NCBI RefSeq assembly: GCF_013184805.1
Contig: NZ_JAATNG010000001.1
Location: 124,001-188,000, forward strand
Length of the DNA stretch: 64,000 bases
Source: Pseudoruegeria sp. HB172150
GTDB taxonomy: Bacteria > Pseudomonadota > Alphaproteobacteria > Rhodobacterales > Rhodobacteraceae
Direction of reading: 5' to 3'
Shown: in pieces, positions 9,739 to 64,000 of the stretch
Layout of the letters: each line of letters opens with the position of its first letter
Numbering within the stretch: position 1 is the first letter of the stretch
The notes under the pieces: generated by a model
What the model was told of the DNA's origin: nothing
The model's database searches: none
The model's input: only the letters and a program-made list of their open reading frames with translations
Position numbers and translations under genes: made by a program

Positions 9739-9754
9739 GGCCGAAACGAAGACA

Positions 9755-9775
9755 GCCCGCGCCGATGGCGCGGGC
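9755..9775. terminator. Bidirectional terminator-like hairpin
   Basis: A perfect 9-bp stem, GCCCGCGCC / GGCGCGGGC, with a GAT loop, lies 16 bases after the LysR stop and 26 bases from the end of the convergent MaoC gene. No strong T-run follows on either strand, but its position between convergent genes fits a shared terminator. Confidence 0.6.
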
Positions 9776-9800
9776 CGTCATTCCGGTTTCTTAACTCAGG

Positions 9801-10145: not shown

Positions 10146-10156
10146 GGTTGTTGTTC

Positions 10157-10606
10157 CTAGTCCGGGAATGCCGAGGTGTGGAGAATGGAGGTCAGCTGCT
10201 GTCCGTCGGCGCGATGGAAATCGACCTGATAGCAGATGTATTTGCGGCCCTTCTTCTCGTACTTGTCGGTGAGGCGCCCGGTGCCGACCACCTCTGTGGT
10301 TTCGTCCGCCCAGATCGGATGGAAGAACTTGAACGTGTTACCGATCATGATGCCACCCTGCTGCGGCGGGTACTTCCGGTACATGACCGCCATCAGATAG
10401 ACGGCCACGACGTTCGGCGGCGCAGCCTGACGGCCGTCGATGACGTAGTTGGATGCTTCCGCACTGACCACCGACATGTATTCTTCCACGATGTCGGGCG
10501 TGATGGTGAACCTCAGCTCGGGAAATTCCGAGCCGATTACCCAATCCTTGTACAATGCGGCGGGCTGTTCACCCTCTCTCGGTTTGACTTCGCTTGGTCG
10601 TGTCAT
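10157..10606 (-). CDS. MaoC-like N-terminal-type hot-dog protein, probable hydratase partner
   Basis: A 149-residue protein resembling the MaoC_dehydrat_N domain (FAS1-like dehydratase half). It has the hot-dog helix region SVVSAEASNYVIDGRQAAPP and strands FKFFHPIWADETTEVV and KGRKYICYQVDF. The Asp/His catalytic motif of hydratases is absent, as expected for the structural partner subunit. It is transcribed just ahead of the short catalytic MaoC gene. It is divergent from the SDR gene, with a 187-base promoter region that contains two palindromes. Confidence 0.78.
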   Translation of the reverse strand: MTRPSEVKPREGEQPAALYKDWVIGSEFPELRFTITPDIVEEYMSVVSAEASNYVIDGRQAAPPNVVAVYLMAVMYRKYPPQQGGIMIGNTFKFFHPIWADETTEVVGTGRLTDKYEKKGRKYICYQVDFHRADGQQLTSILHTSAFPD

Positions 10607-10659
10607 CTTTCATCATCCAATTGCCAGTGTGCCGGCGAATACTCGGTTCCGGCTCGTTC

Positions 10660-10671
10660 CGATTGCAATCG
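10660..10671. promoter_or_regulatory. Palindrome in MaoC/SDR divergent promoter
   Basis: CGATTGCAATCG is a perfect 12-bp palindrome; counting the flanking TTC and AAA it becomes an 18-base near-palindrome with one mismatch. It lies 54 bases upstream of the MaoC operon start and is a candidate operator for the local regulator. Confidence 0.45.
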
Positions 10672-10690
10672 AAATTGAGGAAGATGCCTG

Positions 10691-10705
10691 TGAGAATTTC
10701 TCTCA
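10691..10705. promoter_or_regulatory. Second candidate LysR-type box in MaoC/SDR promoter
   Basis: TGAGA-ATTTC-TCTCA is a perfect 5+5 inverted repeat with T-N11-A spacing, like the site upstream of the LysR gene, although the half-site sequence differs. It lies midway between the two divergent starts. Confidence 0.42.
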
Positions 10706-10793
10706 GCCTGAATGTGCTGGCGGCTTCGTAGGCTGACCAGGAAACCGGCCCGCTGTGGGTCGGGCTGGAAGCGTTCAGAGGGAGGGTAAGTTG

Positions 10794-11579
10794 ATGACGG
10801 AAGCAGGTTTGGCGGGCGATGCAGCGGGGCTCGGGCTGGAGGGAAGGACGGTTGTCGTCACCGGCGCGGGAAGCGGGCTGGGCCGCGCTTTCGCACTGGG
10901 GTTCGCGCAGGCGGGCGCTTACGTCGTTGCCGCGGACATCGTCGGGGCGTCCGCGGATGAGACGGCGATCAAGGTCGAACAATCGGGCGGCCAGGCCATC
11001 GCCGTCACGGTCGACACAACGGATCCGCAATCCCTTGACCGTCTTCGCGACGCGGCACTGACCCGCTTCGGCGAGGTCTCGGTGCTGGTGAACAACGCCG
11101 CGATCTATGGCGGTCTGCGGCGTGCGCCCTTCGAGGAAATCGACCCGGCAGAGTGGGATCGCGTGCTGGCTGTGAACGTGAAGGGCGTGTGGCTTGCAAC
11201 CCGCGCGCTTTCCCAACCACTGCGTGACGCACGGGGCGCGGTGGTCAATGTGGCGTCGACCGTCGCCATGACCGGTTCGCAAAACTGGCTGCACTATGTC
11301 GCCTCGAAAGGGGCCGTCCTTGCGATGACCCGTGCTCTCGCGCGCGAGATGGGCAATAGCGGTGTGCGAGTCAATGCAATTGCACCGGGCTTCACGCTGA
11401 CCGACGCCAGCCTGGACCTGTTCCCCGACGCTGCCGGACATCGCGTCGATCAGAGGGCCCTGGGGCGCAGTGCCGAGGCCGAGGATATCGTCGGCGCGGC
11501 CCTGTTTCTCGCCTCGCAAAGATCGGGATTCACGACCGGTCAGACGCTGGTTGTCGACGGCGGCAGCCACTTTCTTTGA
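10794..11579 (+). CDS. Short-chain dehydrogenase/reductase
   Basis: A 261-residue Rossmann-fold oxidoreductase. The nucleotide motif TGAGSGLGRA is near the N terminus, NNAAIYGG follows, and the Ser-Tyr-Lys catalytic set is seen as NVASTVAM and HYVASKGA. It ends in the classical VDGGSHFL tail. The acidic residue of AADIVG after strand 2 suggests NAD(H). A GGAGGG ribosome site supports ATG 10794 over an upstream in-frame GTG. In context it probably oxidises a hydroxyacyl intermediate or an alcohol group of the pathway's substrate. Confidence 0.9.
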   Translation: MTEAGLAGDAAGLGLEGRTVVVTGAGSGLGRAFALGFAQAGAYVVAADIVGASADETAIKVEQSGGQAIAVTVDTTDPQSLDRLRDAALTRFGEVSVLVNNAAIYGGLRRAPFEEIDPAEWDRVLAVNVKGVWLATRALSQPLRDARGAVVNVASTVAMTGSQNWLHYVASKGAVLAMTRALAREMGNSGVRVNAIAPGFTLTDASLDLFPDAAGHRVDQRALGRSAEAEDIVGAALFLASQRSGFTTGQTLVVDGGSHFL

Positions 11580-11665
11580 GCGGCTTGGCAAGGGTCGTTC
11601 AAGGGCACGATATCCTGTCAAGAAATCTCAAGCCGATGTCAGTGAAAGTCGGTTGCGGTCTGTAA

Positions 11666-11679
11666 ATGATCTAGGTCAA
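11666..11679. promoter_or_regulatory. Weak FNR-like box upstream of CoA-transferase
   Basis: ATGAT-CTAG-GTCAA matches the FNR/FnrL consensus TTGAT-N4-ATCAA at 8 of 10 positions and lies about 82 bases before the TTG start. A chance match is quite possible. Confidence 0.25.
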
Positions 11680-11760
11680 GGTTGTGAAAATTCCGTCCTT
11701 CAAGTTCCCCAGCGAAACCGAAGCGGCGACAAGAATGCGAAGCTTCCGGGAGGGACGTAC

Positions 11761-12969
11761 TTGCTAAATTCGTTTCGAATACTTGATCTTACGTGGGTTC
11801 TGGGCGGGCCGTTCGCCGGTCAGCTCCTGGCACAGCTTGGCGCCGACGTGATCAAGGTAGAAACTCTGAGTGGCGATTTCTCCCGCAGCGTCCCGCCGCA
11901 CTTCATCGAGAACGACTCCGCCTATTACCTGTCCGTCAACCGGGGGAAACGGGGGATCGCGCTCGATCTCAAGTCGCCTGAAGGGATGGAGGTGTTTCGT
12001 GACCTCGTGCGCAGCTGCGATGCCGTGGTCTACGGTTTTGCGCCCGACGTCCCGAAACGGCTGGGCATCGACTACGAGAGCCTGTCGGAGATCAACCCGA
12101 AGATCTGCGTGGCAGAGCTTATCGGTCTTCACGATCAGGGCGATTACTCCCGCGCGCCCGCTTATGACCTGATCGTTCAGGCGATGGGCGGCGTCATGAG
12201 CATCACGGGCGAGGAGGACGGTTCGCCGGTGCGGGTCGGCTATCAGATCGGCGATCTGTCTGGCGGCCTTTATCTTGCTCTCGGTCTGACGGCGGCGCTT
12301 GCGCGGGCCGCGCGCGAGGGGCAGGGCGCCAAGGTTCAGATCTCGCTTTACGACTGTCAGGTTTCCCTGCTGACATGGCAGGCGCAGAACTACTTCGCGT
12401 CGGGAACCATTCCGGTCGCGAGGGGGTCGCGCAACCCGGTGCTGACCCCAAGCGAGGTCTACCGCTGCGCGGACGGGCGTTACCTTGCGGTGTCGCCGAC
12501 GGGCGACGCGTTCTGGAAGAAGTTCTGCGAACTGATCGGCCGACCCGACCTTCCGGAAAGCGCCGAGTTCGGCAAGCGGCCAGACCGGCTGCGGAACGCC
12601 GACGCGCTGATAGAAATCCTCGCCGATATCTTCAGCAAGAAGCCGGCGGAAGACTGGGTGAAGATGTTCTTCGAGGCACGCGTTCCGGCGGCGCTGGTGC
12701 AGAACGTGGCCGAGGCCGTGTCGCATCCCGTTGCGCAGGCGCGCAGGATGGTGGACGATGTGCCCAACCCGGCGACCGGGTCCCACGTGAAATTCCTCGG
12801 CAATCCCTTCAAGTTTTCCGGCCAGCCGCAACTTGGCTACCCGCCGCGTCACGGCGGGAACACCGAGGAGGTCCTCTCCGGGGTGCTCGATTATTCACCA
12901 GAGAAGATCAAAGAGCTCGTGGCCGTTGGTGCAGTCGGTACCGGAACGCCGGCCAAGGCGGCAGAGTAG
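11761..12969 (+). CDS. CaiB/BaiF family CoA-transferase
   Basis: A 402-residue class III CoA-transferase, moving CoA from a donor thioester (often succinyl-CoA) to a carboxylic acid. The N-terminal RILDLTWVLGGPFAGQLLAQLGADVIKVE type segment is characteristic, and the expected catalytic Asp is D136 in APAYDLIVQAMGG. I chose the TTG at 11761 because GGGAGGG lies 6 bases before it and the conserved fold begins right after; no ATG fits. It probably activates the acid that the MaoC pair hydrates and the citryl-CoA-lyase-like enzyme cleaves. The substrate is unknown. Confidence 0.9.
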   Translation: MLNSFRILDLTWVLGGPFAGQLLAQLGADVIKVETLSGDFSRSVPPHFIENDSAYYLSVNRGKRGIALDLKSPEGMEVFRDLVRSCDAVVYGFAPDVPKRLGIDYESLSEINPKICVAELIGLHDQGDYSRAPAYDLIVQAMGGVMSITGEEDGSPVRVGYQIGDLSGGLYLALGLTAALARAAREGQGAKVQISLYDCQVSLLTWQAQNYFASGTIPVARGSRNPVLTPSEVYRCADGRYLAVSPTGDAFWKKFCELIGRPDLPESAEFGKRPDRLRNADALIEILADIFSKKPAEDWVKMFFEARVPAALVQNVAEAVSHPVAQARRMVDDVPNPATGSHVKFLGNPFKFSGQPQLGYPPRHGGNTEEVLSGVLDYSPEKIKELVAVGAVGTGTPAKAAE

Positions 12970-13068
12970 CTTGACGATTGGCTGAATAGTCGGACCACTC
13001 ACACGTGGATAGCCGGGGCAAACCGGCGAGGTCTGGGAAAGAAATCAGACCCGAAAAGCGGAGGAAAG

Positions 13069-14811
13069 ATGGACACTTCGTCGATGGAGTCGGTGAAGCT
13101 GCGGACTGGTAGCAGTCCGGGACAGCGCCCGTTCTGGCAGGGTGAGCGCGCGATCCAGTGGGCCGTGGCGATTGTCGTCTGCTTCCTCGTTCTGGCGCCT
13201 GTGGTGCCGCTGCTCGTTCAGGCCGTGGCGGACCGGGCGCTCTATCTGGATGATATCCAGCCGACCTTCGGCAACTTCGCCCGGCTGATGGAGGACACGG
13301 AGTTCCTGCGCTCGGTCCTCAACTCTATGATCTTTGCCGCTATCGGTACGACGTTCTCCTGCGTGGTCGGTGCAGTCGCCGCCATTCTGATCGGGCGGAC
13401 GGACATGCCGATGAAGGGCCTCGTCTCCGGCCTGATGATCTGGCCGATCTTCATCTCGCACCTCGTCATCACCACCGGCTGGTCCATCGTCTATGGTCCG
13501 GCGGGCTATGTGACGATGACCTTCAAGCTCGCCTTCGGCGACGTGCCCTGGAACCTGTATTCGATCGTCGGAATGTCCGTGGTCGCGGGCGTCTGCCAGG
13601 TGCCGATCACCTATCTCTACTGCCTGACCGCGCTGCGGTCCTCCGACCCGACGCTGGAGGATGCCGCGCGGGCGGCAGGGATGCGGCCGCTGACCGTGTT
13701 CTGGCGGATCACCGTGCCGCTGCTGCGTCCCGCGCTGATCATGAGCAGCATCCTGAACCTCGTCATGCTGCTGGAAGCGGTCTCGATCCCGCTGGTGTTC
13801 GGCCGTCCGGCGGACATCGAGATGTTCATGTCCTACATCTATACGCGGGCGATCTCGGTCTCGAGCCCCGACTATGGTCTGGTCGCGGCGGCCGCCTGCT
13901 TCCTGGTCCTGCTGGTGGTCGTGCTGGTGTCTAGCCAGCGCGTCCTGCTGCGAAAACCGGAACGCTTCGTCACCATTGCCGGCAAGGCGACCCGACCGCG
14001 GACGATGAGGCTGGGCAACTGGCGCTTCGTGGCGCTTGCCGCGCTATTGCTCTACCTTGCCATCCTCGTCGTCCTGCCGCTGGCCGGGCTCGTGACCTAT
14101 GCCTTCTCCAGCTTCCTGACGCCACTGATCCCGATCCGCGAAGTCCTGACGCTGGACAATTTCCGGCTGGTGCTGAGCACGCCCGTCTACGTGCGATCGA
14201 TGACGAACTCGATCATCATCGGGGTTGTCGGCGGTGCCTTCGCCGTCGCTATCGTGGCGTTGCTGGCCGTCGTCGTGCATCGCTCGACATTCCCGTTCCG
14301 GCGGTTCCTCGATATCATCAGCCTGCTGCCACGCGCGGTCCCGGGCATGATCGCCGGCATCGGGATCTTCTATGTGACCGTGATCGTCCAGCCCCTCGGC
14401 TGGCTGCGCGAGACGATCTTTCTTCTGATGATCGCCTTCACGATGCGCTACATTCCCCTCGGTTACGGCGCCATGGCCACGGCGATCATCAAGATCGACA
14501 AGCAGCTCGACAAAAGCGGACGCGCCATCGGGGCAAGCTGGTGGACGACCATACGGCGCATCGTGCTGCCGCTCATGGTCCCCGCCATGCTGTCCAGCTA
14601 CGCGATCCTGTTCATCCATTTCTTCAAGGACTACGCGACCGGCGTCTTCCTGGTCGCGCCGGGCAGCGAAGTCCTGGGCACGACCCTGCTGCAAATGTTC
14701 CTCAGCGGCGAGACGGGTCCGGCCTCTGCTCTCGCGACCATCCAGCTTGCCATCACCGCCCTCTTTATCCTCGGCATGCGCCGCATCGCAGGAGTGTCCC
14801 TTTATGGCTGA
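13069..14811 (+). CDS. ABC transporter permease, fused double-domain iron(III)-type
   Basis: A 580-residue inner-membrane protein made of two homologous permease halves of about six helices each, as in FbpB/SfuB and the aminoethylphosphonate importers. Each half has an EAA-type loop for the ATPase: EDAARAAGMRPLTVFWRI near residue 200 and DKSGRAIGASWWTTIRRI near residue 485. A GGAGGAAAG ribosome site precedes the ATG. The ATPase gene starts inside its end (8-base overlap). In this family the cargo may be ferric iron, but an organic acid or phosphonate is equally possible. The catabolic neighbours favour an organic substrate. Confidence 0.9.
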   Translation: MDTSSMESVKLRTGSSPGQRPFWQGERAIQWAVAIVVCFLVLAPVVPLLVQAVADRALYLDDIQPTFGNFARLMEDTEFLRSVLNSMIFAAIGTTFSCVVGAVAAILIGRTDMPMKGLVSGLMIWPIFISHLVITTGWSIVYGPAGYVTMTFKLAFGDVPWNLYSIVGMSVVAGVCQVPITYLYCLTALRSSDPTLEDAARAAGMRPLTVFWRITVPLLRPALIMSSILNLVMLLEAVSIPLVFGRPADIEMFMSYIYTRAISVSSPDYGLVAAAACFLVLLVVVLVSSQRVLLRKPERFVTIAGKATRPRTMRLGNWRFVALAALLLYLAILVVLPLAGLVTYAFSSFLTPLIPIREVLTLDNFRLVLSTPVYVRSMTNSIIIGVVGGAFAVAIVALLAVVVHRSTFPFRRFLDIISLLPRAVPGMIAGIGIFYVTVIVQPLGWLRETIFLLMIAFTMRYIPLGYGAMATAIIKIDKQLDKSGRAIGASWWTTIRRIVLPLMVPAMLSSYAILFIHFFKDYATGVFLVAPGSEVLGTTLLQMFLSGETGPASALATIQLAITALFILGMRRIAGVSLYG

Positions 14812-52136: not shown

Positions 52137-53369
52137 CTATTCGACCACCCGCTGCGCTACCCGCGTGCCGGCGGTGAGGGTGGCCGACGGGAATTGCACA
52201 ACCTGTTCGCCCGGTTCCAGCCCGCCCAGCACCTCTGCCAGCAACCCGTTGTCGCGGCCGATTTCGACCGCCTGCGTCTCCGCCCGCTCGTCGCGAACAA
52301 CGAACACCGCCCAGCCGTCGCCGTCCCGGAACAGCGCGCTGGACGGCACGATCACCGCGTCCTCCGACTGCCAGATCACGATCCGCGTCTCCACCCGAAA
52401 ACCGTGCCCCAGCCCCTCGCGCCGCTCCGGCGGGCTGGAGATGCGGACGACTACCGTCACCCGCTGTTCCTCCACCCCCAGCGCCGAGGTCTTGGTTTGC
52501 CCGAACGGCTCCACCCGCGTCACCGTGCCCGCCAGTGATCCGGGCCCACCCCAGCTCTCGATGATCACGTCGTCGCCGACGCTGACCTGCACCGCGTCGG
52601 AGGAGATCAGCTCCACAACCACTTCCAGATTGTCGCGCACGTCGCCGACCTCTAGGATCGGGGATCCTGCCGGCAACGTCGTCTCGTCCTCGTTGATCAC
52701 GCGCAGGATCACCCCGTCGGTCGGCGAATAGATCGGCATCACGTCGCCCAGCTGCGCCTCCAGCGCATCCAGTAAACCGCGGTCGTCGAAGCCGATCAGC
52801 TGCGCCTGCGCGCTCTGCAGCTCCGCACGGCGCTGCGCAATCGCCGCCTCCGCCGTATGCAGCCCCGCCTCCGCCGCCCGCGCCTGACCTTCCGCCCGGT
52901 CCAGCGCCGCCTGGCTCACGGTTCCGCTCTCCGCCAGCCGCCGCGCGCGTTCCACGTCAGAGTTCGCCACGTCCAGATCGGCACGCGCCGCTTCGAGGTT
53001 GGCCTCTGCCACGCGCAGCGCCGCTTCTGCGGCTTCCACCGCCGCCATCGCCTGTCCGCGCGTCCGCGCGTCCAGCGCCGACGGGTTCGCCGGGCGCATT
53101 TGCGCCACGACCGACGCGTTCTCGGTCACCGCGTCGCCCGGGCGCACCTCTACCCGCAGAAGCCTGCCGTCCACCGGCGTCGACACGACGAAAGCGTCCC
53201 GCACCCGCGTCCGCCCCTCCTCGTCGATGGTCAGCATCATCTCGCCCCGGCTCACCTCACCGATATCCACCATCGTGGCGCGCGGCCAGAACGCGGCGGT
53301 CAGGGCGGCGACTACCAGAATGGCGGCGCCGATCGTCAGGATGGGACGAGAGAGTTTCTTGCGCGCCAT
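52137..53369 (-). CDS. HlyD/MacA-like membrane fusion (adaptor) protein
   Basis: A 410-residue periplasmic adaptor with an N-terminal anchor helix (LTIGAAILVVAALTAAF), a lipoyl-like half-motif, then a long Ala-rich coiled coil (AAVEAAEAALRVAEANLEAA, residues 95-200), a return lipoyl half (YSPTDGVILRVI), and a beta-barrel region. It bridges the inner-membrane ABC exporter to the outer membrane. The start is 5 bases after the permease stop. No TolC-type gene is seen in the window. Confidence 0.9.
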   Translation of the reverse strand: MARKKLSRPILTIGAAILVVAALTAAFWPRATMVDIGEVSRGEMMLTIDEEGRTRVRDAFVVSTPVDGRLLRVEVRPGDAVTENASVVAQMRPANPSALDARTRGQAMAAVEAAEAALRVAEANLEAARADLDVANSDVERARRLAESGTVSQAALDRAEGQARAAEAGLHTAEAAIAQRRAELQSAQAQLIGFDDRGLLDALEAQLGDVMPIYSPTDGVILRVINEDETTLPAGSPILEVGDVRDNLEVVVELISSDAVQVSVGDDVIIESWGGPGSLAGTVTRVEPFGQTKTSALGVEEQRVTVVVRISSPPERREGLGHGFRVETRIVIWQSEDAVIVPSSALFRDGDGWAVFVVRDERAETQAVEIGRDNGLLAEVLGGLEPGEQVVQFPSATLTAGTRVAQRVVE

Positions 53370-53373
53370 GCTG

Positions 53374-55737
53374 CTATTCCCTTGATTTCAAGACGTCTAT
53401 CAACGCGGTCCGGTCGAGGTCCCGTTTCACCAGCCAGCCCGAGACCATAGCCGCCGCCAGCGTGAACGAGGCGGCAAAGCCATGGCTCCAAGGGTCGAAC
53501 CCGGTCGGAATCTGGTAGATTTCAGAGGAGAAGCCCTTTGCGATCAGGATCGACAGGCCATAGCCCAGGACCGAACCCAAAGGCACCGCGACCAGCATGA
53601 TCAGTCCCAGTTCGCCCAGGAGGACAAAGGCGGCCTCGCCCTTGGAAAACCCCATCACTCGAAGCGAGGCCAGATCGCGGTTCAGCTCCGTTTGCGCGAT
53701 ACGGGCCGCGTTATAGACGATGCCGAAGGTGATCACGAAGGCGACCACGCCCATGATGTACCGTGCCGATCCGGCGCCCTCGTCCATCAGCCGCTGCAGC
53801 GACGCCTGCAGATCCTCGGCCACGGTCACACCGGCGACAGTCGGCATGTCGCTGAGCGTGGCATAGATCTCGTCGGCCCGCGCGGGGTCGACCATCAGCC
53901 GCGCGCTGGTGATCCGCAGCGGTTCCTTCATCTCGCGGTTCAGCGCATCCAGCTGCATGTAGGCAGGCGTGCCGATCAGGCTGCGCGCAACCCGCACGAC
54001 CGGCACTTCCAGCACAGGCCGCCGGCCTTCGCGCACCTCAATGGTCAGCATTTCGCCCGGCTCGATCTCAAGTATATCCGCCAGCGACTGGCTCAGCACG
54101 ATGCCGCGTTCGGGCAGGGGGATCGGCCGCAGGTCCTTGTCGATAGCGCGCGACAGCTCAGTGTCGGCGATCATCCCGCTGACCGCGCCGCGCTGTGTCT
54201 TCAGTCCGTTGCGCAGGATGGCGGAGACATCGCGCGTCGGTTCCACCCGCAGCACGCCCGGAACGCGCGCCAGTTCCAGCGCCGCCTTTTCGGACAGTGG
54301 CGTGTTGAAGACGACGGTCGCGTCGGACCGGTCGATGACGGTGAAACTCAGATCCTGCATGGTGTCGAAAGACCCGTAGATCGTGGTCATCCCGGCGGAC
54401 AGCGCCATGCCTCCTGCGACCCCGGCGATCAGCGCCGCCACGCGCCACGGCCGCCGCGCCACACCGCGCAAGATCATCCGGCTCGGCTGGTCCAGCATGC
54501 GGCCGACCGGTCCGTCGAATGTGACCGTGCGGCTGTAATCGGCAGGGGCAGGGGGCCGCATCGCCTCTGCCGGGTCCAGCGCGAAGACGCGGCGCAGAAC
54601 GAAAAGCCCGCCGGCCGAGGCGGCGGCGATACTGGCGCCCACGCCGATCACGAAAGAGGTCGGGTCCGGCCGGAAAACAAGGAACGGGAAATTGTAGAAT
54701 TTCGTATAGACCGGGATCATCGCGCGCCCGGACAGGATGCCCAGGATGCAGCCCACCGCGGCGCCCGCCGTGGCCACGATCAGGACCATCTTGAAGTAAT
54801 GCGAGCCAACTTCGCCATTGGTATAGCCGAACGCTTTCAGTAGCCCGATCTCTTCCCGTTCCGACTGCACGATGCGGCTGACCACGATGTAAAGCAGGAA
54901 GGCAGCCACCGCGAGGAACAGCGGCGGGACCGAACGCGCCATGGTCTCGAGGCCGGCAATTTCCTCCTGCACGAAGCGGTCCGACACAAGGTCGTCGCGC
55001 CCGTAGGCTCCGGTGCCGCCCCATCTGTCCAGTACCGAGTCGATCCGGTCGATCACCTCCGGTTCCGACGCGCCCCGCCCCAGCGCGAAAAGCACTTCGT
55101 TGAAGGCGCCCGACATGTCGTAGGCGGCGGCAAGTGAGGTGCGCTGCATCCAGATCACCGCGAACCGGGCCGGATCCGGCACCATCTGGCCGGGTGCGGC
55201 GGCGTAAAGCAGCTCCGGCGACTGCGCCAGGCCTGTGATCCGAAGCGTGCGCCGCGCGCCGTTCATGGTGACGTTCAGCGTGTCACCCGGTGCAATATCG
55301 TGCGCCGCCGCAAAGCCGGCCAACAGCAGGATCTCGTCGCGCGACGCCTGCCCGGGCATCCGGCCCTCTGTCAGGTAGACCTGGTTCAACAGCTGCTCGC
55401 CCCGCTCTTCCAGCGAGGTCGCTCTTGCCTGGATCGGTACCGCCTCGTCCGGCAGGTTGACCAGAGCCGCACCGCGGACGCGTCCCTCGACCCGCGCGAC
55501 GCCGGGAATCTCGGCCAGGATCGCCAGTTGCGAATCCGGCGCACGGGTCAGGGAGGCGAAGACATTGGCCAGCCGGTTTCGCTCGTAATAGGCGCGTCGC
55601 GTCTCGGTCAGGGACGTGACAAGCCCGGACATCATAACCTGCAGCAGCACGCCCACCGCAATCACAGCCGCAATGGCGATGACCTGCCCGCGAATATGAT
55701 TGAGGTCACGCAGAAGCTTGCGGTCGAGCGGTTTCAC
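53374..55737 (-). CDS. FtsX-type ABC exporter permease, double-domain
   Basis: A 787-residue inner-membrane protein. An N-terminal helix is followed by a large periplasmic MacB-core-like region (about 45-250), an FtsX membrane domain (about 265-400), a second periplasmic region (about 430-630) and a second FtsX domain (about 650-780). It is an unusually large duplicated permease, more like the YbbP/DevC group than LolC. With its ATPase and HlyD adaptor it forms a tripartite exporter of lipid, glycolipid or peptide. It overlaps the ATPase gene by ATGA. Confidence 0.9.
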
Positions 55738-56438
55738 CAGACGACCTCCTCGGGCGACAGCCGGGTCTCGTTCTGCTCCACCTCGCGGATCTGGCCGTCG
55801 GCCAGCCGGATCACCTTGTGCGCCATGCCCGCGATGTTCGCGGCGTGGGTCACCATCAGCACGGTCGCACCCAGCCGCTGGTTCACCTCGTTCAGCACGC
55901 GCAGCACGGCGCGGCCCGTGGCGCTGTCTAGCGCGCCGGTAGGTTCATCGCAGAACAGGACCTCGGGCTGTTTCGCGATGGCCCGCGCGATGGCGACACG
56001 CTGCTGCTCTCCGCCGGAAAGCTGCGAGGGAAAGTGATCCACGCGCTCCTTCAGGCCGACAAGCTCCAGCGCTTCCTCGGGCCGCATCGGGTTATCGGCG
56101 ATCTCGGTTACCAGTTCGACATTCTCCCGTGCGGTCAGGCTGGGCATCAGGTTGTAGAACTGGAACACGAAGCCGACATGTTCCCGCCGGTAGCGGGTCA
56201 GCCCGGAATCATCGAGGTCGGTCAGGCAGATATCGCGGAAATGAACGGTGCCGGTGCTGGCATGGTCCAGCCCGCCGAGGATGTTCAGCAGTGTCGACTT
56301 GCCGCTGCCTGAAGCGCCAAGCATCACCACGATCTCGCCCTGCGGGATCTCCAGATCGACTCCCCGCAACGCGTGGACCGCGGAACGCCCCTCGCCATAA
56401 GTCTTGGTCAGGCCCTTCGCGGTGAAGGCGATCGTCAT
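55734..56438 (-). CDS. LolD/MacB-type ABC ATP-binding protein
   Basis: A 234-residue ATPase: Walker [10 protein letters not shown], signature [13 protein letters not shown], Walker [13 protein letters not shown] and His of MVTHAANIA. The length and GASGSGKST form are those of lipoprotein-release or macrolide-exporter ATPases. It leads the operon ATPase, FtsX permease, HlyD adaptor. Upstream, about 120-130 bases away, lies an FNR-like box. Confidence 0.92.
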
Positions 56439-56835: not shown

Positions 56836-57627
56836 CTATCCAAACGGCCGCGCTTCCACCTCCGGCAACGCCATATCCCTCACCTTTCGAAGCAGCCCTA
56901 TGAACCCCTCGACCTGGTGCGCCGCTGTGGCCCGCCCTTTGTCGGCCGTGGCCTTAGAGGCATCTCCCACGGTGCCTTCCGGGTTCAGATCCGCCGCGAT
57001 CCACCCCCGGCTGATCCCCCCGATAGGCGATATCGGGTCCGTCTCGGCGGCCGACCGGAAATCCTTTGCCTGACCCATTTCTACGCAGTCCGGCCGGAAC
57101 GCCAGCATCAGCGAGGTCTCCACGTCCCCACCATGGATGCCATAGGCCCGCTCATGTTCCGAATACATCCCCTCCGGATGCCCGAAACCGCCCCACTGGC
57201 ACTTCACCGCCAGCATCCCGGCTTCCACCCGAAGCTCCCGGCTCAGGATCGACACCAGATCCAGGTTTCCCCCGTGCGAGTTCACGATGACGATCTTCCG
57301 ATAACCCGCCCGCGCCACGCTCATCCCGATCTCGGTCCACGCCGCCAGCGCCGTCGGGGCGGTCAGCGTCAGCGTCCCCTTTGCCCACAGATGCTCGTTC
57401 GACTTGCCCACCGCCTGCACCGGAAGGATCGCCACATCCAGATCGTCAGGGCAGCTCTTCCGGAACTCGGCCAGCATCCCCTCGGCGATCATCGTGTCGG
57501 TCCCGACCGGCAGGTGGGGCCCGTGCTGTTCGATGGCGGCGGTGGGCAGGATCGCGATAGAGGTCATCGGGTGGACCGAGGCAAACTCGGGCGCCCGCCG
57601 TTCTGCCCAGTCCAGCCTGCGGCTCAC
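56836..57627 (-). CDS. Creatininase family amidohydrolase
   Basis: A 263-residue metal hydrolase of the creatininase fold. The family's metal ligands are all visible: E33 and H35 in IEQHGPHLP, D44 in GTDT, H118 in NSHGGN and E170 in GGDVETSL. Creatininase opens the cyclic amide of creatinine; relatives hydrolyse other lactam or formamide bonds (ArfB in deazaflavin synthesis, IolN in inositol breakdown). It is the last gene of an overlapping eight-gene operon with an uptake system and oxidative enzymes, so a ring-opening step in catabolism of a cyclic amide fits. It overlaps the oxygenase gene by ATGA. Confidence 0.9.
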   Translation of the reverse strand: MSRRLDWAERRAPEFASVHPMTSIAILPTAAIEQHGPHLPVGTDTMIAEGMLAEFRKSCPDDLDVAILPVQAVGKSNEHLWAKGTLTLTAPTALAAWTEIGMSVARAGYRKIVIVNSHGGNLDLVSILSRELRVEAGMLAVKCQWGGFGHPEGMYSEHERAYGIHGGDVETSLMLAFRPDCVEMGQAKDFRSAAETDPISPIGGISRGWIAADLNPEGTVGDASKATADKGRATAAHQVEGFIGLLRKVRDMALPEVEARPFG

Positions 57628-58544
57628 TCCACCGGCTCCGGCTTATAGGTCGCATCGAGCCGGTAGCGCAGGTAATCAGCGCCGGTGACCGGGGGATACT
57701 TCGCCTCGCCCGAGCCCGGTATCGCGCGGATCACGCTGTCGGGGTTCGGATCGAGGAAGAAGGCGATGGAACGGCGGCGGCGCTTCGGCGGCAGCACCCG
57801 GTGCGGGGTCGAGACGTATATGTCGTTGGACCACCGCATCAGCAGGTCGCCGATGTTGACCACGAAAGCACCCGGTACATGTGGCACGTCAGTCCAGTCG
57901 CCACCGCGCGGTTTCACCTGCAGCCCCGGTTCGCCGTCGGTCATCAGCAGCGTGACAGAGCCGTAGTCGGTATGCGCGCCGGCACCAATTTCGCCTTCGG
58001 CGCCAGTCGCGGCCGGATAGGTCAGGACGCGCAGGGTGGCGAGGGACTGGTCGAAATGCTGGGCAAAGAAGTCCTTCGGCAGGCCGAGATCGGTGGCGAT
58101 TGGCTGCTGCAGCGCCACGCCGAGAGCCAGGGCGGCATCGTAATAGGTCAGCATCGTGTCACGGAACCCCGGCAGGTCGGGCCATACATTCACGCCGCGA
58201 AACGGCTCACCCGCTACAACGCGCGGATCGTCTTCGGCAAGATCGAGGCCGACGTTGTAGGCCTCCTTCTGATCGACCTGGTCAGATGTGTCGTCAAGGT
58301 TCTCGCTGCCCTGCGCCGACCAACCGCGATTATGCGGGTTCTTCGTGATCGAGAGCGGCGCTTTTTCCGAGGGCGGGAGTGAGAAGAAAGTATCGGCGGC
58401 GGTGAACACGTCGGAGACCAGTTGGTCCGGCACCGGGTGGCCCGACAGTAGAAAAAAACCTGTGTCGCGGCAGGCGGCGCCGAGAGCCGAGGTGAAGGCA
58501 TCCGGGTCGGTTTCGTAGTCTGTCCAGTCGAGGATGGGGATCAT
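57624..58544 (-). CDS. 2-Oxoglutarate/Fe(II)-dependent oxygenase (isopenicillin N synthase-like)
   Basis: A 306-residue double-stranded beta-helix oxygenase. The Fe(II) triad is H191 and D193 in GAHTDYGSV and H248 in STPHRVL, with Arg in RRRSIAFF to bind 2-oxoglutarate. The N-terminal ACRDTGFFLLSGHPVP and NRGW segments match the DIOX_N/IPNS family, which includes hydroxylases and ethylene-forming enzyme. ATG 58544 sits inside the next gene's stop (ATGA). It likely hydroxylates or N-demethylates the operon's substrate. Confidence 0.91.
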   Translation of the reverse strand: MIPILDWTDYETDPDAFTSALGAACRDTGFFLLSGHPVPDQLVSDVFTAADTFFSLPPSEKAPLSITKNPHNRGWSAQGSENLDDTSDQVDQKEAYNVGLDLAEDDPRVVAGEPFRGVNVWPDLPGFRDTMLTYYDAALALGVALQQPIATDLGLPKDFFAQHFDQSLATLRVLTYPAATGAEGEIGAGAHTDYGSVTLLMTDGEPGLQVKPRGGDWTDVPHVPGAFVVNIGDLLMRWSNDIYVSTPHRVLPPKRRRRSIAFFLDPNPDSVIRAIPGSGEAKYPPVTGADYLRYRLDATYKPEPVE

Positions 58545-59167
58545 GCGGGGGCCTCCCGAGGTTTCGCCACGGCGCCGATGAAGCGGACCAGCCGCTTTTC
58601 GACGCGGGCAAGGTGTTTCGCCCGGCTCTCGGGCGTCGAAGAATCCATCAGGTAATGCGCGGCAAAGGCAGTGCGGCAACGCTTTGCACAAAGCAGTCGC
58701 ACGCCGCGCAGGATGGTGCGGCGGCCGGGTGCGCCGATGAAACGGGTCAGCCACCAGCTTGCACCACAGGTCGTGAAGACGGCGAGGCGCGTGATGTTGA
58801 GAAGGCCGGGTTTGATGTCCTCGCCTTCCGCGGCAGGCATCTCGAATGCGACGCCGGGAACCATGACGCGGTCGAGCCAGCCCTTCAGCATCGCAGGCAA
58901 TCCGTACCACCAGGTCGGGTAGACGAAAATGAGCGTGTCACACCATGTCAGGGCATCGAGGTGCGCCTCGATGCCCTTCCGGTTCTCGTCAGTATCCTCG
59001 TAGATTTCCAGTTCGCGTGCGGTAAGACGCGGGTCGAAGCCTTCGTCATAGAGGTCGATCAACCTCGTTTCCGCCCCGGCGGCGGCGAGCCGCTCCAGCA
59101 CCTTGTCGCGGACCGCTTCGTTGAAGCTGCCACGGCGGGGGTGACTGTAGACGACCAGCGCCTTCAT
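58541..59167 (-). CDS. NAD(P)H oxidoreductase, flavodoxin-like fold (YwrO/KefF-type), copy 1
   Basis: A 208-residue FMN protein of the NQO1-like flavodoxin_2 family. N-terminal VVYSHPRRGSFNEAV is the flavin phosphate loop, and LIFVYPTWWYGLPAMLKGWLDRV is the family core. It is paralogous to the next gene. In the operon it could recycle a quinone or flavin for the FAD-linked oxidase, or reduce an intermediate directly. It overlaps its neighbours on both sides (ATGA, TGATG). Confidence 0.88.
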   Translation of the reverse strand: MKALVVYSHPRRGSFNEAVRDKVLERLAAAGAETRLIDLYDEGFDPRLTARELEIYEDTDENRKGIEAHLDALTWCDTLIFVYPTWWYGLPAMLKGWLDRVMVPGVAFEMPAAEGEDIKPGLLNITRLAVFTTCGASWWLTRFIGAPGRRTILRGVRLLCAKRCRTAFAAHYLMDSSTPESRAKHLARVEKRLVRFIGAVAKPREAPA

Positions 59168-59748
59168 CAGAGCGCCTCCATTTCCCGCGTCACCCGTTCC
59201 AGGTGAGCCTTCAACTGCGGTTCCTGATTGTTGTTCATGTCGTATAACGCGATGTACCGTTTCTTGGGCATTCCGCAGGCATACCACACTGCGCGGGTGA
59301 CGCATTTCCGCGGTGGATCGCCGTTCAGCATGGCGCGCATTCGGGTACCGCCGTAGGTCGTGCAGGCGGCGAGGCGCTTGATGTTGGTCAGGCCGGGACG
59401 GACGCCGCCATCCTGCAATTTGAAGCTGACGCCGGGCAGGAAAACTCGGTCGAGGAAGCCCTTGAGGATCGCCGGGTAGCCGAAATTCCAGACCGGGAAA
59501 ACCATGACGAGTGCCTCTGCGGCGCGGAGGCGCTCGACATACTCCTTCACCGGCCCGATATTGTCCGGCTCGTCATGATACCCACGCCGTTCCAGTTCGG
59601 TCAGGACCGGGATGAAGCCCTCGGTGTTCAGGTCGCAATCGTCCACGTCCCAGCCGCGGGCGGTCAGTGCTTCGACTACCGCGCTGTGCACGGCGGCGTT
59701 GAAGCTTTCTGGGCAGGGATGAGCATAAAGGACGAGCGCGCGCGTCAT
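59167..59748 (-). CDS. NAD(P)H oxidoreductase, flavodoxin-like fold, copy 2
   Basis: A 193-residue paralogue of the previous protein. VLYAHPCPESFNAAV aligns with the flavin loop and LVMVFPVWNFGYPAILKGFLDRVF with its core. The C-terminal half differs clearly (PRKCVTRAVWYACGMPKKRY), which suggests the two copies have distinct substrates or form a heterodimer. Coupled by TGATG to copy 1 and by ATGA to the FAD oxidase gene. Confidence 0.88.
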   Translation of the reverse strand: MTRALVLYAHPCPESFNAAVHSAVVEALTARGWDVDDCDLNTEGFIPVLTELERRGYHDEPDNIGPVKEYVERLRAAEALVMVFPVWNFGYPAILKGFLDRVFLPGVSFKLQDGGVRPGLTNIKRLAACTTYGGTRMRAMLNGDPPRKCVTRAVWYACGMPKKRYIALYDMNNNQEPQLKAHLERVTREMEAL

Positions 59749-61145
59749 CCGGCGGCCTTGAGCTTCGGATAGGCATACATCCGGTCGTAGCTCCAGTCCG
59801 GGTCGTCCCAGGAGATCATCTTGCCGGGATTCAGCAGGCCCTTGGGATCGGCCTCACGTTTGAAGGACAGCTGGGTGTCGTCGGTGTGCTGCCGCCCGCC
59901 TTCCTCCAGCGTGTATCGGTGCGGGTTGAAAATCAGCGCGCCAGCTTCCTCGTGCAACCGGATGATCTCGTCCAGGCGTTCCTCGGTCGTGAATTTGACC
60001 ATCGACAGGCCGGCGAAGGCGATCTTGCCGTTCATCCGGATTGCTTCCAGGTGCTGCAGGACTTCGGGCGAGAAATCCGCGCGCATCTTCTCGATCAGCT
60101 CACGGTGTTTCGGGAAAGCGTAGCGGACCTGAAGGTAGGTGATTGACGGATCGACCTTCAGAGCACGCAGGGTCGTGTGGTTCCAGCCGTATTCGAAGAT
60201 CGGCCCGGGATCGCGCGCCCAGTCGTGATCGTCGGAGCGGTAGATCAGTTTCGCCTCCGGCCTCCGGCCGAGGAAGGTCAGGAAACCGTCCATGGACTGT
60301 GGCGCGACCATCAGGCCGACAAGGTTCGTGCCGGATTCCACGTATGGCTTCACCCGCTGGAAATAGTCATGCGCGATGGGCGCCTCGTAGACTGAGGCGA
60401 TCTTGAGCAGGATGCCGTCCTCGTTGGCGATGTCGTCGGCGAATGCCATGGCTTCGGCGAAATCGTCGAAGGCGACGAAAAGGCCGGTCCAGTCATACGC
60501 CGGTGCCAGCGGCATCTCCAACTCGGTGATGATCCCGTTAGTGCCATAGGCATGCGAGACGCGCGCCAGCTCTTCGCCGGTGAATTCCAGGATGCGCGGT
60601 TCCGCTTCCATGGTCACAACGCGCAGGCGGATGATGTTGCCGAGATCGCGGAGTGAACCCCAGTGGACCGACCCGACGCCACCCGACCCGCCGGCAATGA
60701 AGCCGCCTATCGTGGCCGTGGCCCACGTTGAGGAGAACATGCGAAGTTCCTGTCCAGAGGCTTCCTTGCAGGCGACGTCGAGGTCCTTCAGCAGGATGCC
60801 AGGTTCGCAGATCACCCGGCCTGGGGCGATTTCCTTCACAGCCGTCATGTGTCGAAGGTGCATGACGCAACCGCCGGCCAGCGGCATTGCCTGCCCGTAG
60901 TTGCCGGTGCCCGCACCGCGCGTGGTTACAGGCACGTCATGGGTGTAACAGACCTTCAGGATCTCGATCACCTCGGACTCATTGCGCGGACGCACGACGA
61001 AATCGGCGACCACGTGATCGAGCCGCGCCTTCAGCACCGGGGAATACCAGAAGAAGTCGCGCGAAGAGGCGCGGATGTTGGTGTCCTTCTCCTCGATATC
61101 CAGGTGAGAAAGGGCGGCCTTGGCGGCGGCGATGTCCATACTCAT
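59745..61145 (-). CDS. FAD-linked oxidase (GlcD/vanillyl-alcohol-oxidase-like)
   Basis: A 466-residue flavoenzyme of the FAD_binding_4 (PCMH) superfamily. Residues 40-220 form the FAD domain, with VRPRNESEVIEILKVCY, TRGAGTGNYGQAMPL and GGFIAGGSGGVGSVHWGSL. The C terminus has the DPKGLLNPGKMISW signature of lactate/glycolate-type oxidases. It begins in the amidohydrolase stop (ATGA). It may oxidise a hydroxy acid released from the ring-opened substrate. Confidence 0.92.
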   Translation of the reverse strand: MSMDIAAAKAALSHLDIEEKDTNIRASSRDFFWYSPVLKARLDHVVADFVVRPRNESEVIEILKVCYTHDVPVTTRGAGTGNYGQAMPLAGGCVMHLRHMTAVKEIAPGRVICEPGILLKDLDVACKEASGQELRMFSSTWATATIGGFIAGGSGGVGSVHWGSLRDLGNIIRLRVVTMEAEPRILEFTGEELARVSHAYGTNGIITELEMPLAPAYDWTGLFVAFDDFAEAMAFADDIANEDGILLKIASVYEAPIAHDYFQRVKPYVESGTNLVGLMVAPQSMDGFLTFLGRRPEAKLIYRSDDHDWARDPGPIFEYGWNHTTLRALKVDPSITYLQVRYAFPKHRELIEKMRADFSPEVLQHLEAIRMNGKIAFAGLSMVKFTTEERLDEIIRLHEEAGALIFNPHRYTLEEGGRQHTDDTQLSFKREADPKGLLNPGKMISWDDPDWSYDRMYAYPKLKAAG

Positions 61146-62404
61146 GACACTCCAAGCAGTTCGTCGAGTTCGGCGTAGTCGGGCAGGGTGCGGTCGATGG
61201 CACGGCCTTCCCGCAGCACGATGCGGTCGGATTGCGGGCGGGCGAAGAGTTCTGTCCACTCTCGGGCGCGGAAGATCACAAGATCGGCGGGGGCGCCTTC
61301 GGCAAGGGACGGCGCGCCCCAGCCGCAACTTTCCGCCGGGGTGGTCACGCAGCTTTCCACCCAGTCGGCCCGCGAATGGTCCAGATGCGCGATCCGAGTC
61401 GCCTGCCGCATGACCTCCAGCATGTCGAGGTCGCCGTAAGCGTAAAACGGATCGCGCGTGTTGTCGCTGGCGAAGCTGACCGGAATGCCGCGTGCCTTCA
61501 TCTCGTGAACCAGAGTCACACCACGATAGCGGGGCGTGCGGCCAAAACGCCGGTCCTGCAGGTAGAGGTTGCACATCGGCAGGCTGACCACGTTCAGCCC
61601 GGCGCGGGCTACCAGATCCAGCGTGTCGAGCGCGCGGGGTTCGTTCTGCGTCGAGAGCGAGCAGCAATGGCCCACCACGACGGCCTTGTCGAAGCCGGTT
61701 TCCTTGGCCGCGATGGCGATGGTGCGCAGTGTCTCGGAAGCCGGGTCCATGGTTTCGTCGACGTGGAAATCGGCGGAGAGGCCACGTTCCCCTGCCATTT
61801 CGAAGAAACCGCGCAGGATCTCGTGAAGCCCCGGAACAGGGTAAGTAACCAGCCCTAGCACGCCGCCGAATCCCTCGACGGTATCGGCGATGGCGAGGAA
61901 CTCTCCGTCCGTTCCGAAGCGATCGCAGCTGATCAGGCTTGAGCCCTGCAATTCCACCTTTCCGGCCCATGTGTCGCGCAGTTCGGCGAAGACCGGAAAG
62001 CTGATCGCATACTGGTCGTCGCCGGAATCCAGATGTGTCCGGATGCGGGACGTGCCGTGGGCATAGGCGCTGCGCAGCCCGAACTCCATTCGGGCGCGGA
62101 CGTCCTCGGCCGACCATTTGGCGTGATCGCGCCGCACAGTCGTCAGAGCGCCCATGAAGGTGCCGTCGGGGTTCCAGGCGCGCGGCCAGATGTGGCCCTT
62201 GTCCAGATGCGTGTGCATGTCGGTGAAGCAGGGCAGGACCATCGCCCCCTTCATCTCGACATCGTCTCCGCCCGGCGCGGCGATCCATCCGCCGTCTATG
62301 CCGATATCGGTGCGCATGAGGTCGCCCGCCTGACCCAGCAGGCAGGCCGGCACGGTCACGTCGCGCAGAGTGAAGCGGCCCTCGGGGAGCTTGCGGAAAT
62401 CCAT
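61142..62404 (-). CDS. Cytosine deaminase/creatinine deaminase family amidohydrolase
   Basis: A 420-residue TIM-barrel metal hydrolase. H64-x-H66 occurs in TDMHTHLDKGH, H214 and E217 in FHVDETMD, H246 in GHCCSL and D314 in ASDNTRDPF, all conserved in CodA. The family deaminates cytosine, creatinine, isoguanine or other cyclic amidines. It follows the permease gene with no gap (TAG|ATG). In an operon that also has a creatininase-type enzyme, a cyclic amidine such as creatinine or a hydantoin-like ring is a reasonable, unproven substrate. Confidence 0.9.
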   Translation of the reverse strand: MDFRKLPEGRFTLRDVTVPACLLGQAGDLMRTDIGIDGGWIAAPGGDDVEMKGAMVLPCFTDMHTHLDKGHIWPRAWNPDGTFMGALTTVRRDHAKWSAEDVRARMEFGLRSAYAHGTSRIRTHLDSGDDQYAISFPVFAELRDTWAGKVELQGSSLISCDRFGTDGEFLAIADTVEGFGGVLGLVTYPVPGLHEILRGFFEMAGERGLSADFHVDETMDPASETLRTIAIAAKETGFDKAVVVGHCCSLSTQNEPRALDTLDLVARAGLNVVSLPMCNLYLQDRRFGRTPRYRGVTLVHEMKARGIPVSFASDNTRDPFYAYGDLDMLEVMRQATRIAHLDHSRADWVESCVTTPAESCGWGAPSLAEGAPADLVIFRAREWTELFARPQSDRIVLREGRAIDRTLPDYAELDELLGVS

Positions 62405-63262
62405 CTAGCCTTCCCGTTTGAGCGCGCTCTCATGCCACTTGTGCAGCGCGAGATAGCTGATCAGGCTCATCGCCGCGAAGATCACGACGCCCATCAGGGA
62501 GATCAGGATAAGCGCGGCATAGAGCCGGCCGAAGTTGAAGCGATAGGAGGCTTCGAGCAGGGTCGAGGCGAGGCCCAGACCTGTGCCGGCGCGGCCGATC
62601 ACGAATTCCGCAACCACAGCGCCGATCAGAGCGAGGCCGCCGGCGATCTTCAACCCGCCAAGGAAGAACGGCAGCGCCGATGGGGCCGCGAGATAGCGCA
62701 GGCGCTGCCAGCGGTTGGCGCCGTAGATGGTGAACAGGTCTTCCAGATTATGGTCCGACGATTTCAGCCCGATGGTCGTGTTTGACAGGATCGGAAAGAA
62801 GGCCACGATCCAGGCGCAGAGCAGGGCCGCGACAAAAGCGTTCTCGACATAGATCTGCAGAAGCGGCGCGATGGCTACGACCGGCGTGACCTGCAGGATC
62901 ACGGCATAGGGGAAGAACGACAGTTCCGCCCATTTGGACTGGGTGAACAGCACAGCCAGGAAAACGCCGCCACAGACCGCCATGATCAGGGCCAGCAACG
63001 TCAGCCGGCCAGTAATCAGCATGGCCGGCCACAGGATCGGCCAGTCCTCGACCATTTTCTGCGCGACGACAGTAGGACCGGGGAGGATGTAGTGCGGCAC
63101 TTCCCAGATCGTGACGTAGAAGTGCCAGGCAAGGATCGCGACGACCAGCACCAGCGATGGCAGCATCCAGCGCGCGATCTTCATCAGCCGCTCGTTGCGG
63201 GCGCGCGCCTCTTCTTCGGCGTCGATCAGAGGCGCGGAAGTGGCGGGTTCGGCGATACTCAT
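62405..63262 (-). CDS. ABC transporter permease, nitrate/sulfonate/pyrimidine type (SsuC-like)
   Basis: A 285-residue inner-membrane protein with six helices and a roughly 35-residue acidic N-terminal tail. The EAA-type loop is DLFTIYGANRWQRLRYLAAP near residue 185. It resembles the SsuC/TauC/ThiX group that imports sulfonates, taurine or pyrimidine precursors. The ATPase gene overlaps it by ATGA. The periplasmic binding protein of the system is not in the window and probably lies beyond the right edge. Confidence 0.92.
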   Translation of the reverse strand: MSIAEPATSAPLIDAEEEARARNERLMKIARWMLPSLVLVVAILAWHFYVTIWEVPHYILPGPTVVAQKMVEDWPILWPAMLITGRLTLLALIMAVCGGVFLAVLFTQSKWAELSFFPYAVILQVTPVVAIAPLLQIYVENAFVAALLCAWIVAFFPILSNTTIGLKSSDHNLEDLFTIYGANRWQRLRYLAAPSALPFFLGGLKIAGGLALIGAVVAEFVIGRAGTGLGLASTLLEASYRFNFGRLYAALILISLMGVVIFAAMSLISYLALHKWHESALKREG

Positions 63263-63996
63263 GCGGCCTCCGCGATGGCTTGGTGAAGTGCTTCCTGCGC
63301 CTTTCGGGCATGCGCGGCGTATTCGTTCGATGTGCGGAATGCCTCGCTGCGCGGGTAGGGCGCGTCGACCTCCAGCTCGCGGATCACGCGGCCGGGGCGC
63401 GCGGCCATCACGACGATGCGGTCGGACAGGAAGACGGATTCGAAGACCGAGTGGGTCACGAAGATTACCGTGCAGCCGATGGATTCTCGCAACGCCAGAA
63501 GGTCGTTGTTCAGTTTCTGACGGGTGATCTCGTCGAGGGCGGCGAAGGGTTCGTCCATCAGGATCAGCCGCGGCTTGGTCACCAGCGCACGTGCGATGGA
63601 AACGCGCATCTTCATCCCACCCGACAACTCGCGCGGAAAGGCACGCTGGAACTTCTCCAGCCCGACCAGCCGCAATGCCTCCAGCACGTCGTCCTTCACC
63701 TCGCTGTAGGACTTGCCGCGCAGGCGGAAGGGCAGCCAGACATTTTCCGCCACCCGCGCCCATGGCATCAGCGTGGGTTCCTGGAAGACGACACCAAGGT
63801 CGCCCAGACCCTGCCCACCGGTCCATTCGATCCGGCCCGCGGTGGGCCGCATCAGCCCGGCGACCAGCCGGAGCGCGGTGGACTTGCCGCACCCGGACGG
63901 GCCGAGCAGCGAGATGAAGTCACCCTCGTTTACCGTCAGGTTCATGTCCTTCAGTGCGACGACTTCGCCGCCGAAGGTCTTTTCGATATGGCTCAT
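63259..63996 (-). CDS. ABC transporter ATP-binding protein (SsuB/TauB-like), N terminus possibly cut by window edge
   Basis: An ATPase of the nitrate/sulfonate family: Walker A GPSGCGKST, signature LSGGMKMRVSIAR, Walker B LILMDEPFAALD and switch His in VIFVTHSVFESV. From the first ATG in the window it is 245 residues. However, family members usually have several residues (a first beta strand) before the VSHxEKTFGG-like position, and the frame is open to the window edge. The true start may therefore lie outside. It heads the part of the operon visible here. Confidence 0.9.
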   Translation of the reverse strand: MSHIEKTFGGEVVALKDMNLTVNEGDFISLLGPSGCGKSTALRLVAGLMRPTAGRIEWTGGQGLGDLGVVFQEPTLMPWARVAENVWLPFRLRGKSYSEVKDDVLEALRLVGLEKFQRAFPRELSGGMKMRVSIARALVTKPRLILMDEPFAALDEITRQKLNNDLLALRESIGCTVIFVTHSVFESVFLSDRIVVMAARPGRVIRELEVDAPYPRSEAFRTSNEYAAHARKAQEALHQAIAEAA

Positions 63997-64000
63997 CTGA

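Follow-up and report, generated by a model that had tools for sequence, protein, structure and literature searches.

Folic acid (vitamin B9) has a pterin as its ring system, and few enzymes are on record for the route by which pterins are broken down. The Introduction of PMC9513972 lists bacterial breakdown genes for vitamins B1, B2, B3, B6, and C; for folate, the sole genes it names are those for carboxypeptidase G, pterin deaminase, and p-aminobenzoyl-glutamate hydrolase, and the later fate of deaminated pteroate is left open there. According to the same source, the pterin deaminase of Variovorax sp. F1 has 399 residues, acts on folate and pteroate, and is 37.0% identical to Arad3529, and the predicted pterin deaminase genes of V. 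paradoxus have "endoribonuclease" genes downstream. A flavin oxygenase structure has been deposited as PDB 6v42 with the title "Crystal structure of the flavin oxygenase with cofactor bound involved in folate catabolism". Enzymes of both kinds, pterin deaminase and flavin oxygenase of folate catabolism, are already known. Here we describe an eight-gene operon at the end of a 64,000-nucleotide stretch of Pseudoruegeria sp. HB172150 DNA (the window; G000:C1:124001-188000 in a genome of 5.06 Mb and 21 contigs). It encodes, among other proteins, an amidohydrolase annotated as a cytosine deaminase and a flavin adenine dinucleotide (FAD)-binding flavoprotein. We think it probable that the operon serves the catabolism of a pterin-type compound, namely a free pterin, an oxidized pterin such as 6-carboxypterin, or a folate fragment.

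The flavoprotein and the deaminase

The flavoprotein, which is of the VAO/PCMH type (59745-61145, minus strand), has one close solved relative, 6v42 (phmmer E 5.6e-177). A structural model computed from a 35-row alignment reached a predicted local distance difference test (pLDDT) score of 84.7, as compared to 36 for a single-sequence model, and a Foldseek search with the model placed 6v42 at rank 1 (E 4.4e-57, template-modeling score 0.92, 56% identity over nearly the full length). The homology of the two proteins extends over their full length and includes the common stretches RGxGTGNYGQ, WNHTTLRAL, and FNPHRYTLEEGG, which were chosen from the alignment. A Mesorhizobium loti cluster with a similar make-up encodes an FAD protein that shares 75% identity with the 6v42 sequence. 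The origin of 6v42 was not found among 146 genomes of the genus of genome G532 (best identity 76%) or among the plasmid rows listed (best 66%); 140 of the 146 genomes match 6v42 at E 1e-150 or better.

The deaminase gene (61142-62404, minus strand) encodes a protein that scores 590 bits against the NCBIfam model NF005759 "cytosine deaminase", which has a cut-off of 403. The cut-off is missed by six of ten related deaminases, and the model name is an annotation rather than an assay. Residues H64, H66, H214, E217, H246, and D314 are present in the protein, and we assume that their roles are those of the CodA counterparts. A D-N-x-x-D-x-F motif is found in all 85 deaminases of loci L007-L091 and in the window protein (D314, N315, F320), whereas D-D-V-F-D-P-W and D-S-I-Q-D-P-W occupy this site in the solved cytosine deaminases. 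The CodA-type D-D/S-x-x-D-x-W stretch, a feature chosen from the alignment, is absent from the window deaminase.

A connection to the assayed Variovorax enzyme came from 397 genomes drawn from the phylum and searched with the FAD protein of a comamonad. A match was present in 39 of them, the window's genome included, and two Variovorax-like genomes of one genus matched at 78-79%. The second deaminase of both genomes has 398 or 400 residues, counted from the chosen start. One of the two begins with MKLQALR, and the F1 primer published in PMC9513972 encodes MKLEAVR; in the other, the gene-end primer from the same source lands on the stop codon with 5 mismatches in 21. Directly downstream of the deaminase, both genomes carry a RidA gene, a family whose Pfam name is endoribonuclease L-PSP. 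In one of these loci (L196), FAD, ATP-binding cassette (ABC), flavodoxin-fold NAD(P)H oxidoreductase (NQO), TetR, and creatininase-type genes follow the deaminase and RidA. These features suggest that the Variovorax-like deaminase is an F1-type pterin deaminase located in the same kind of cluster.

An unrooted tree of 25 rows was calculated from 23 deaminases of the loci studied here, including the Variovorax-like pair, and the partial cytosine deaminases 4r7w and 1k6w. The 23 deaminases split from 4r7w and 1k6w with support of 100/100. The tree thereby places the window protein in the Arad3529/F1-type amidohydrolase group and apart from cytosine deaminase, the Variovorax rows being taken as F1-like. 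Because the FAD protein resembles 6v42 and the apparent ortholog of the F1 pterin deaminase lies in a like cluster, we consider it more likely that the window "cytosine deaminase" is a pterin deaminase.

Architecture and conservation of the gene set

The operon consists of eight consecutive minus-strand genes (56836-64044), with junctions, read directly, that overlap by four bases or one base or have no gap. Upstream of the deaminase are an ABC transporter ATPase (63259-64000; Pfam PF00005, 3e-32) and a permease (62405-63262; PF00528, 1.3e-22). The ATPase gene starts 44 bases outside the window, at 64044 in an extended numbering that continues beyond 64000 (L006:9260-10045). Downstream of the flavoprotein are two NQO proteins, NQO-a (59167-59748; PF02525, 1.5e-32) and NQO-b (58541-59167; PF02525, 1.1e-34), an isopenicillin-N-synthase-type 2-oxoglutarate/Fe(II) oxygenase (57624-58544; PF14226 and PF03171), and a creatininase-family metal hydrolase (56836-57627; PF02633, 3.3e-66). 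The ATPase/permease, deaminase/FAD, FAD/NQO-a, and NQO-b/oxygenase junctions are ATGA with an overlap of 4 bases, permease and deaminase adjoin as TAG and ATG with a gap of 0, and NQO-a and NQO-b overlap by 1 base in TGATG. The 4-base overlap of the oxygenase and creatininase-type genes reads GTGA because the latter gene starts with GTG.

The unit extends beyond the window, as the stop codon of an NMT1/THI5-type binding-protein gene (64104-65096 extended, L006:10105-11097, minus strand; PF09084, 1e-16) lies 59 bases ahead of the ATPase start. A RidA-family gene (65316-65714 extended, L006:11317-11715, plus strand; PF01042, 1.9e-20) diverges from it, with 219 bases between the two starts. By eye, no regulator was seen adjoining the binding-protein gene or the unit in this genome; the loci of relatives carry LysR, TetR, or IclR genes. 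A riboswitch search in 7 loci gave no Rfam match at the gathering score. A search for a common 8-base operator between RidA and the binding-protein gene, for which 34 of the 42 upstream regions extracted were used (100-400 bases each), gave a best 8-mer in 6 of the 34, from which nothing is claimed.

These results bear out the gene arrangement of the original prediction, made from the window sequence alone, and part of its interpretation. The tightly packed operon is real, with all eight genes present on the minus strand and their families confirmed by Pfam, and the proposed ATGA, TGATG, or zero-gap junctions are correct for six of the seven, the last one being the GTGA described above. Of the binding protein and regulator expected past 64000, the former was found and the latter was not seen alongside. 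The proposed catabolic operon for a cyclic nitrogen compound is in keeping with the NMT1 (nitrate/sulfonate)-type importer, the two different C-N hydrolase families, and the oxidative enzymes. The expected conservation across genomes was likewise observed, as detailed below.

We fetched 80 loci by FAD-protein alignment (the best 80 of at least 588, a set biased toward close relatives) and counted homologues of at least 40% identity within 8.5 kb; 67 of the 80 loci had enough flank on both sides. The binding-protein, ATPase, permease, deaminase, and FAD genes occur together in 67/67 of these, and the grouping is therefore not due to chance. NQO-a is present in 62/67, the creatininase-type gene in 60/67, RidA in 59/67, and NQO-b in 44/67, and the 2-oxoglutarate oxygenase is found in 25/67. 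In Rhodobacteraceae the order is mostly divergent RidA, ABC, deaminase, FAD, NQO, NQO, sometimes the oxygenase, and the creatininase-type gene; in rhizobia it is mostly creatininase-type, LysR, ABC, deaminase, FAD, NQO, and RidA. Among the genes flanking 85 loci, LysR occurs in 21 (rhizobial type), and no further conserved partner was recognized by eye, the other clusters listed (at least 5 loci each) appearing to be common genes (other ABC, SDR), neighbors in close relatives, or antisense open reading frames. Regulators and accessory oxygenases differ from locus to locus.

An even draw of 387 alphaproteobacterial genomes contained the FAD gene (E 1e-60 or better) in 19, the window's genome included. 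The 18 other genomes gave 19 loci, with a deaminase in 14, a creatininase-type gene in 12, NQO in 11, RidA in 8, and the oxygenase in 2. In a plasmid collection, which supplied less close relatives, FAD, deaminase, creatininase-type, RidA, and ABC genes were found in loci from a comamonad (L099), Salipiger (L095), Mameliella (L100), Pseudosulfitobacter (L105), Nitratireductor (L096), Pantoea (L102), and Klebsiella (L103). Several of these loci had their own proteins in the query set; the annotation names the genes independently, except for the L103 deaminase and creatininase-type genes. The Pantoea locus has a PDR/VanB-type reductase gene (L102, 3764-4711) and no NQO match, and L196 has such a reductase gene (8564-9547) together with NQO. 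A Ruegeria locus (L101) has no ATPase or permease match nearby.

Several loci show variations on this theme. In the Klebsiella locus (CP125156.1), the reductase, deaminase, and creatininase-type genes each match in two separate open reading frames (L103, 3705-7302), as if broken. In Nitratireductor, the creatininase-type/deaminase/FAD cluster (L096, 4042-16394) adjoins hydantoinase-B-type and ureidoglycolate-lyase-type genes, a hint of ureide-like downstream intermediates. Two Rhizobium and Agrobacterium plasmid loci (L094 and L097) combine a binding protein, ABC genes, an isopenicillin-N-synthase-type oxygenase, LysR, and a related "cytosine deaminase" with no FAD, creatininase-type, or RidA match in 19 kb, which represents a smaller version of the system. 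Deaminases of Aminobacter and Shinella (L092, L093) are 60-63% identical to the Mesorhizobium one and sit in a different cluster with isochorismatase-type, tautomerase, DpsA, and octopine-dehydrogenase-type genes.

In the surroundings of the operon, inspection by eye indicated an apparent ABC exporter set on the same strand (52137-56438), composed of an HlyD-like protein, a large FtsX-like permease, and an ATPase. Past RidA lies a convergent gene resembling a Sir2 deacetylase, and apparent imelysin and di-haem iron-uptake genes are located just past the window (L006:13484-18439).

Proposed pathway and alternative substrates

For pterin catabolism, we infer the substrate and every chemical step from sequence. 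The NMT1-type ABC system would import the compound, and the amidohydrolase would then take off the 2-amino group, giving a lumazine and ammonia. The FAD flavoprotein may subsequently oxygenate the lumazine ring or a side-chain carbon, with both flavodoxin-fold oxidoreductases as the likely suppliers of electrons. The creatininase-family hydrolase could open a ring amide, and RidA would hydrolyze a reactive enamine or imine, thus freeing more nitrogen. The 2-oxoglutarate oxygenase is predicted to trim a substituent that only some hosts meet. Enzymes of this type are marked by an HxD...H iron triad and an RxS co-substrate motif, and the window protein has both, with H191, D193, H248, R257, and S259 invariant in it and two relatives. 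Since the oxygenase is an optional member, its expected target is a substituent rather than the core ring.

Several observations weigh against the assignment. None of the ten proteins is a carboxypeptidase by Pfam, and intact folate may for this reason not be the substrate. Identities of 56% for the FAD protein and 38% for the deaminase do not fix a substrate, and the deaminase passes a model with the name of another enzyme. The folate link of 6v42 is its PDB title; no paper on it was found among open-licence PubMed Central papers. Neither "folate catabolism" nor "folic acid degradation" appears as a term in a review of flavin N5 chemistry, the one paper turned up for folate catabolism with a flavin oxygenase. 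As the Variovorax-like pair branches off before the other 21 deaminases, with weak support of 80/64, the window deaminase is not specially close to it. The match of the pair to F1 is itself imperfect with respect to the primers in PMC9513972: at the start codon, 4 of the 21 bases of the forward primer do not match, and equally poor matches occur elsewhere; a primer scan with up to 3 mismatches missed the Variovorax-like deaminase gene; and the downstream primer is absent from the Variovorax-like locus within 5 mismatches. Finally, no deaminase accompanies the FAD gene in 5 of the 19 sampled loci, of which L151 is at a contig edge and L158 is the second locus of a deaminase-carrying genome, nor in the Agrobacterium locus L104, and related deaminases without a nearby FAD gene occur in L092, L093, L094, and L097.

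The choice of ring is further complicated by a second module in the window's genome, located on contig 17 (L115, G000:C17:196000-212000, 6096-14666). Its proteins are 47% (creatininase-type), 38-39% (deaminase), 46% (FAD), and 53% (NQO) identical to those of the window, and it adds an ABC ATPase, a permease, an unusual binding protein, and an IclR regulator; no RidA match was found in the 16 kb examined. The two strong deaminase and two strong FAD homologues of the genome pair at two sites, each beside a creatininase-family gene. The weaker matches (7 FAD, 1 deaminase, and 3 creatininase) are not adjacent, with the closest unlike pair approximately 18 kb apart. Tandem arrays of two or three FAD genes are found in other genomes. 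One locus (L149, G110:C15) contains three tandem FAD oxygenase genes at 6472, 7800, and 9152 beside creatininase-type, ABC, and deaminase genes, and another (L152) contains two. The module is duplicated and probably serves several related compounds, which is the main reason that we refrain from naming an exact substrate.

The paralogous modules, the tandem FAD genes, some of which have Rieske genes nearby, and the accessory oxygenases that vary between loci would all be expected if the same kind of module had drifted in specificity to another fused nitrogen ring, such as isoxanthopterin, a lumazine or flavin breakdown product, a deazapurine, or a modified purine, with folate-type pterins not being the main substrate. 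We regard this as unlikely, since the nearest solved relative of the FAD protein is ascribed to folate catabolism and the deaminase group includes the probable ortholog of the F1 pterin deaminase.

An operon for a pyrimidine, be it cytosine, 5-methylcytosine, or the thiamine pyrimidine, is what the gene names imply, and the NF005759 score, the NMT1/THI5-type binding protein, and the presence of thymine dioxygenase among the solved relatives of the oxygenase are in line with it. The motif and the tree described above nonetheless separate the deaminase from the solved cytosine deaminases, no known pyrimidine ring-cleavage enzyme is present among the ten proteins by Pfam, and the RidA protein is far from the RutC model TIGR03610 (22.7 versus 169.1 bits), which makes this substrate class improbable.

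Creatinine or hydantoin, listed among the compounds to test in the original prediction, is suggested by the creatininase-family protein and by the genes adjoining the Nitratireductor cluster but is very improbable, as the protein scores 76.7 bits against the creatininase equivalog TIGR04448 (cut-off 235) and has glycine at the creatininase E122 site, no creatinase or hydantoinase is found among the ten proteins by Pfam, and the nearest characterized relatives indicate pterins or folate. The creatinine/hydantoin and pyrimidine readings were set aside on the NCBIfam cut-offs, the aligned residues, and the tree. None of the results hints at ectoine-like compounds or methylxanthines, also on that list, to which no test was directed. 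The original guess of a cyclic amidine does fit pterin catabolism, because pterin is itself a cyclic amidine.

Significance and comparison with described systems

PMC9513972 treats the deaminase and carboxypeptidase G, and the terms gene cluster, FAD, ABC transporter, and creatinin do not occur in its available text. In open-licence PubMed Central papers, no description was found of the whole cluster, its importer, the creatininase-type and Rid proteins, or the optional oxygenase. It is quite possible, although we would not yet assert it, that the operon represents a complete pteridine-ring route from import to ring opening, that the genes of the creatininase-family and Rid-family proteins count among the earliest to be assigned to this ring opening in bacteria, and that the module, with exchangeable tailoring oxygenases of the 2-oxoglutarate, Rieske, and TauD types, is spread across Alpha-, Beta-, and Gammaproteobacteria with its genes labeled cytosine deaminase and creatininase. 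With importer, deaminase, flavin oxygenase, reductases, hydrolase, and Rid protein brought together in one conserved group of up to ten genes, the open folate pathway would become a testable list of enzymes, and the common names cytosine deaminase and creatininase would be corrected in marine and plant-associated bacteria.

Of the described systems, Pseudomonas creatininase (PDB 1j2t/3a6j) shares its family with the window hydrolase, which keeps E33, H35, D44, H118, and E170. The creatininase residues E34, H36, D45, and H120 are aligned in the window protein and are presumably ligands; W174 and E122, the latter with a role that we likewise assume, are not kept, and the window protein falls under the equivalog cut-off.

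The Rut pathway of pyrimidine catabolism comprises an amidohydrolase-type step, a flavin-dependent oxygenation with an NAD(P)H reductase, and a Rid-family protein. The present operon resembles it in each of these but differs in that its RidA protein does not reach the RutC equivalog score, and no other Rut model is among the NCBIfam matches listed for the enzymes. In an alignment, the RidA protein of the operon differs clearly from the Rid proteins encoded at the Pantoea, comamonad, and Aminobacter loci, and orthology of RidA across the clusters is therefore not claimed.

With the F1/Arad3529 pterin deaminases, the operon has in common the amidohydrolase group, an adjoining RidA-type gene in Variovorax, and the kind of cluster found in the Variovorax-like genomes, the distance being that of a window deaminase about 38% identical to the Variovorax-like protein. 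Although its identity to the flavin oxygenase of PDB 6v42/6v43 is too low to guarantee that the two share a substrate, the window FAD protein matches that enzyme at 56% identity, with the same fold, over its full length.

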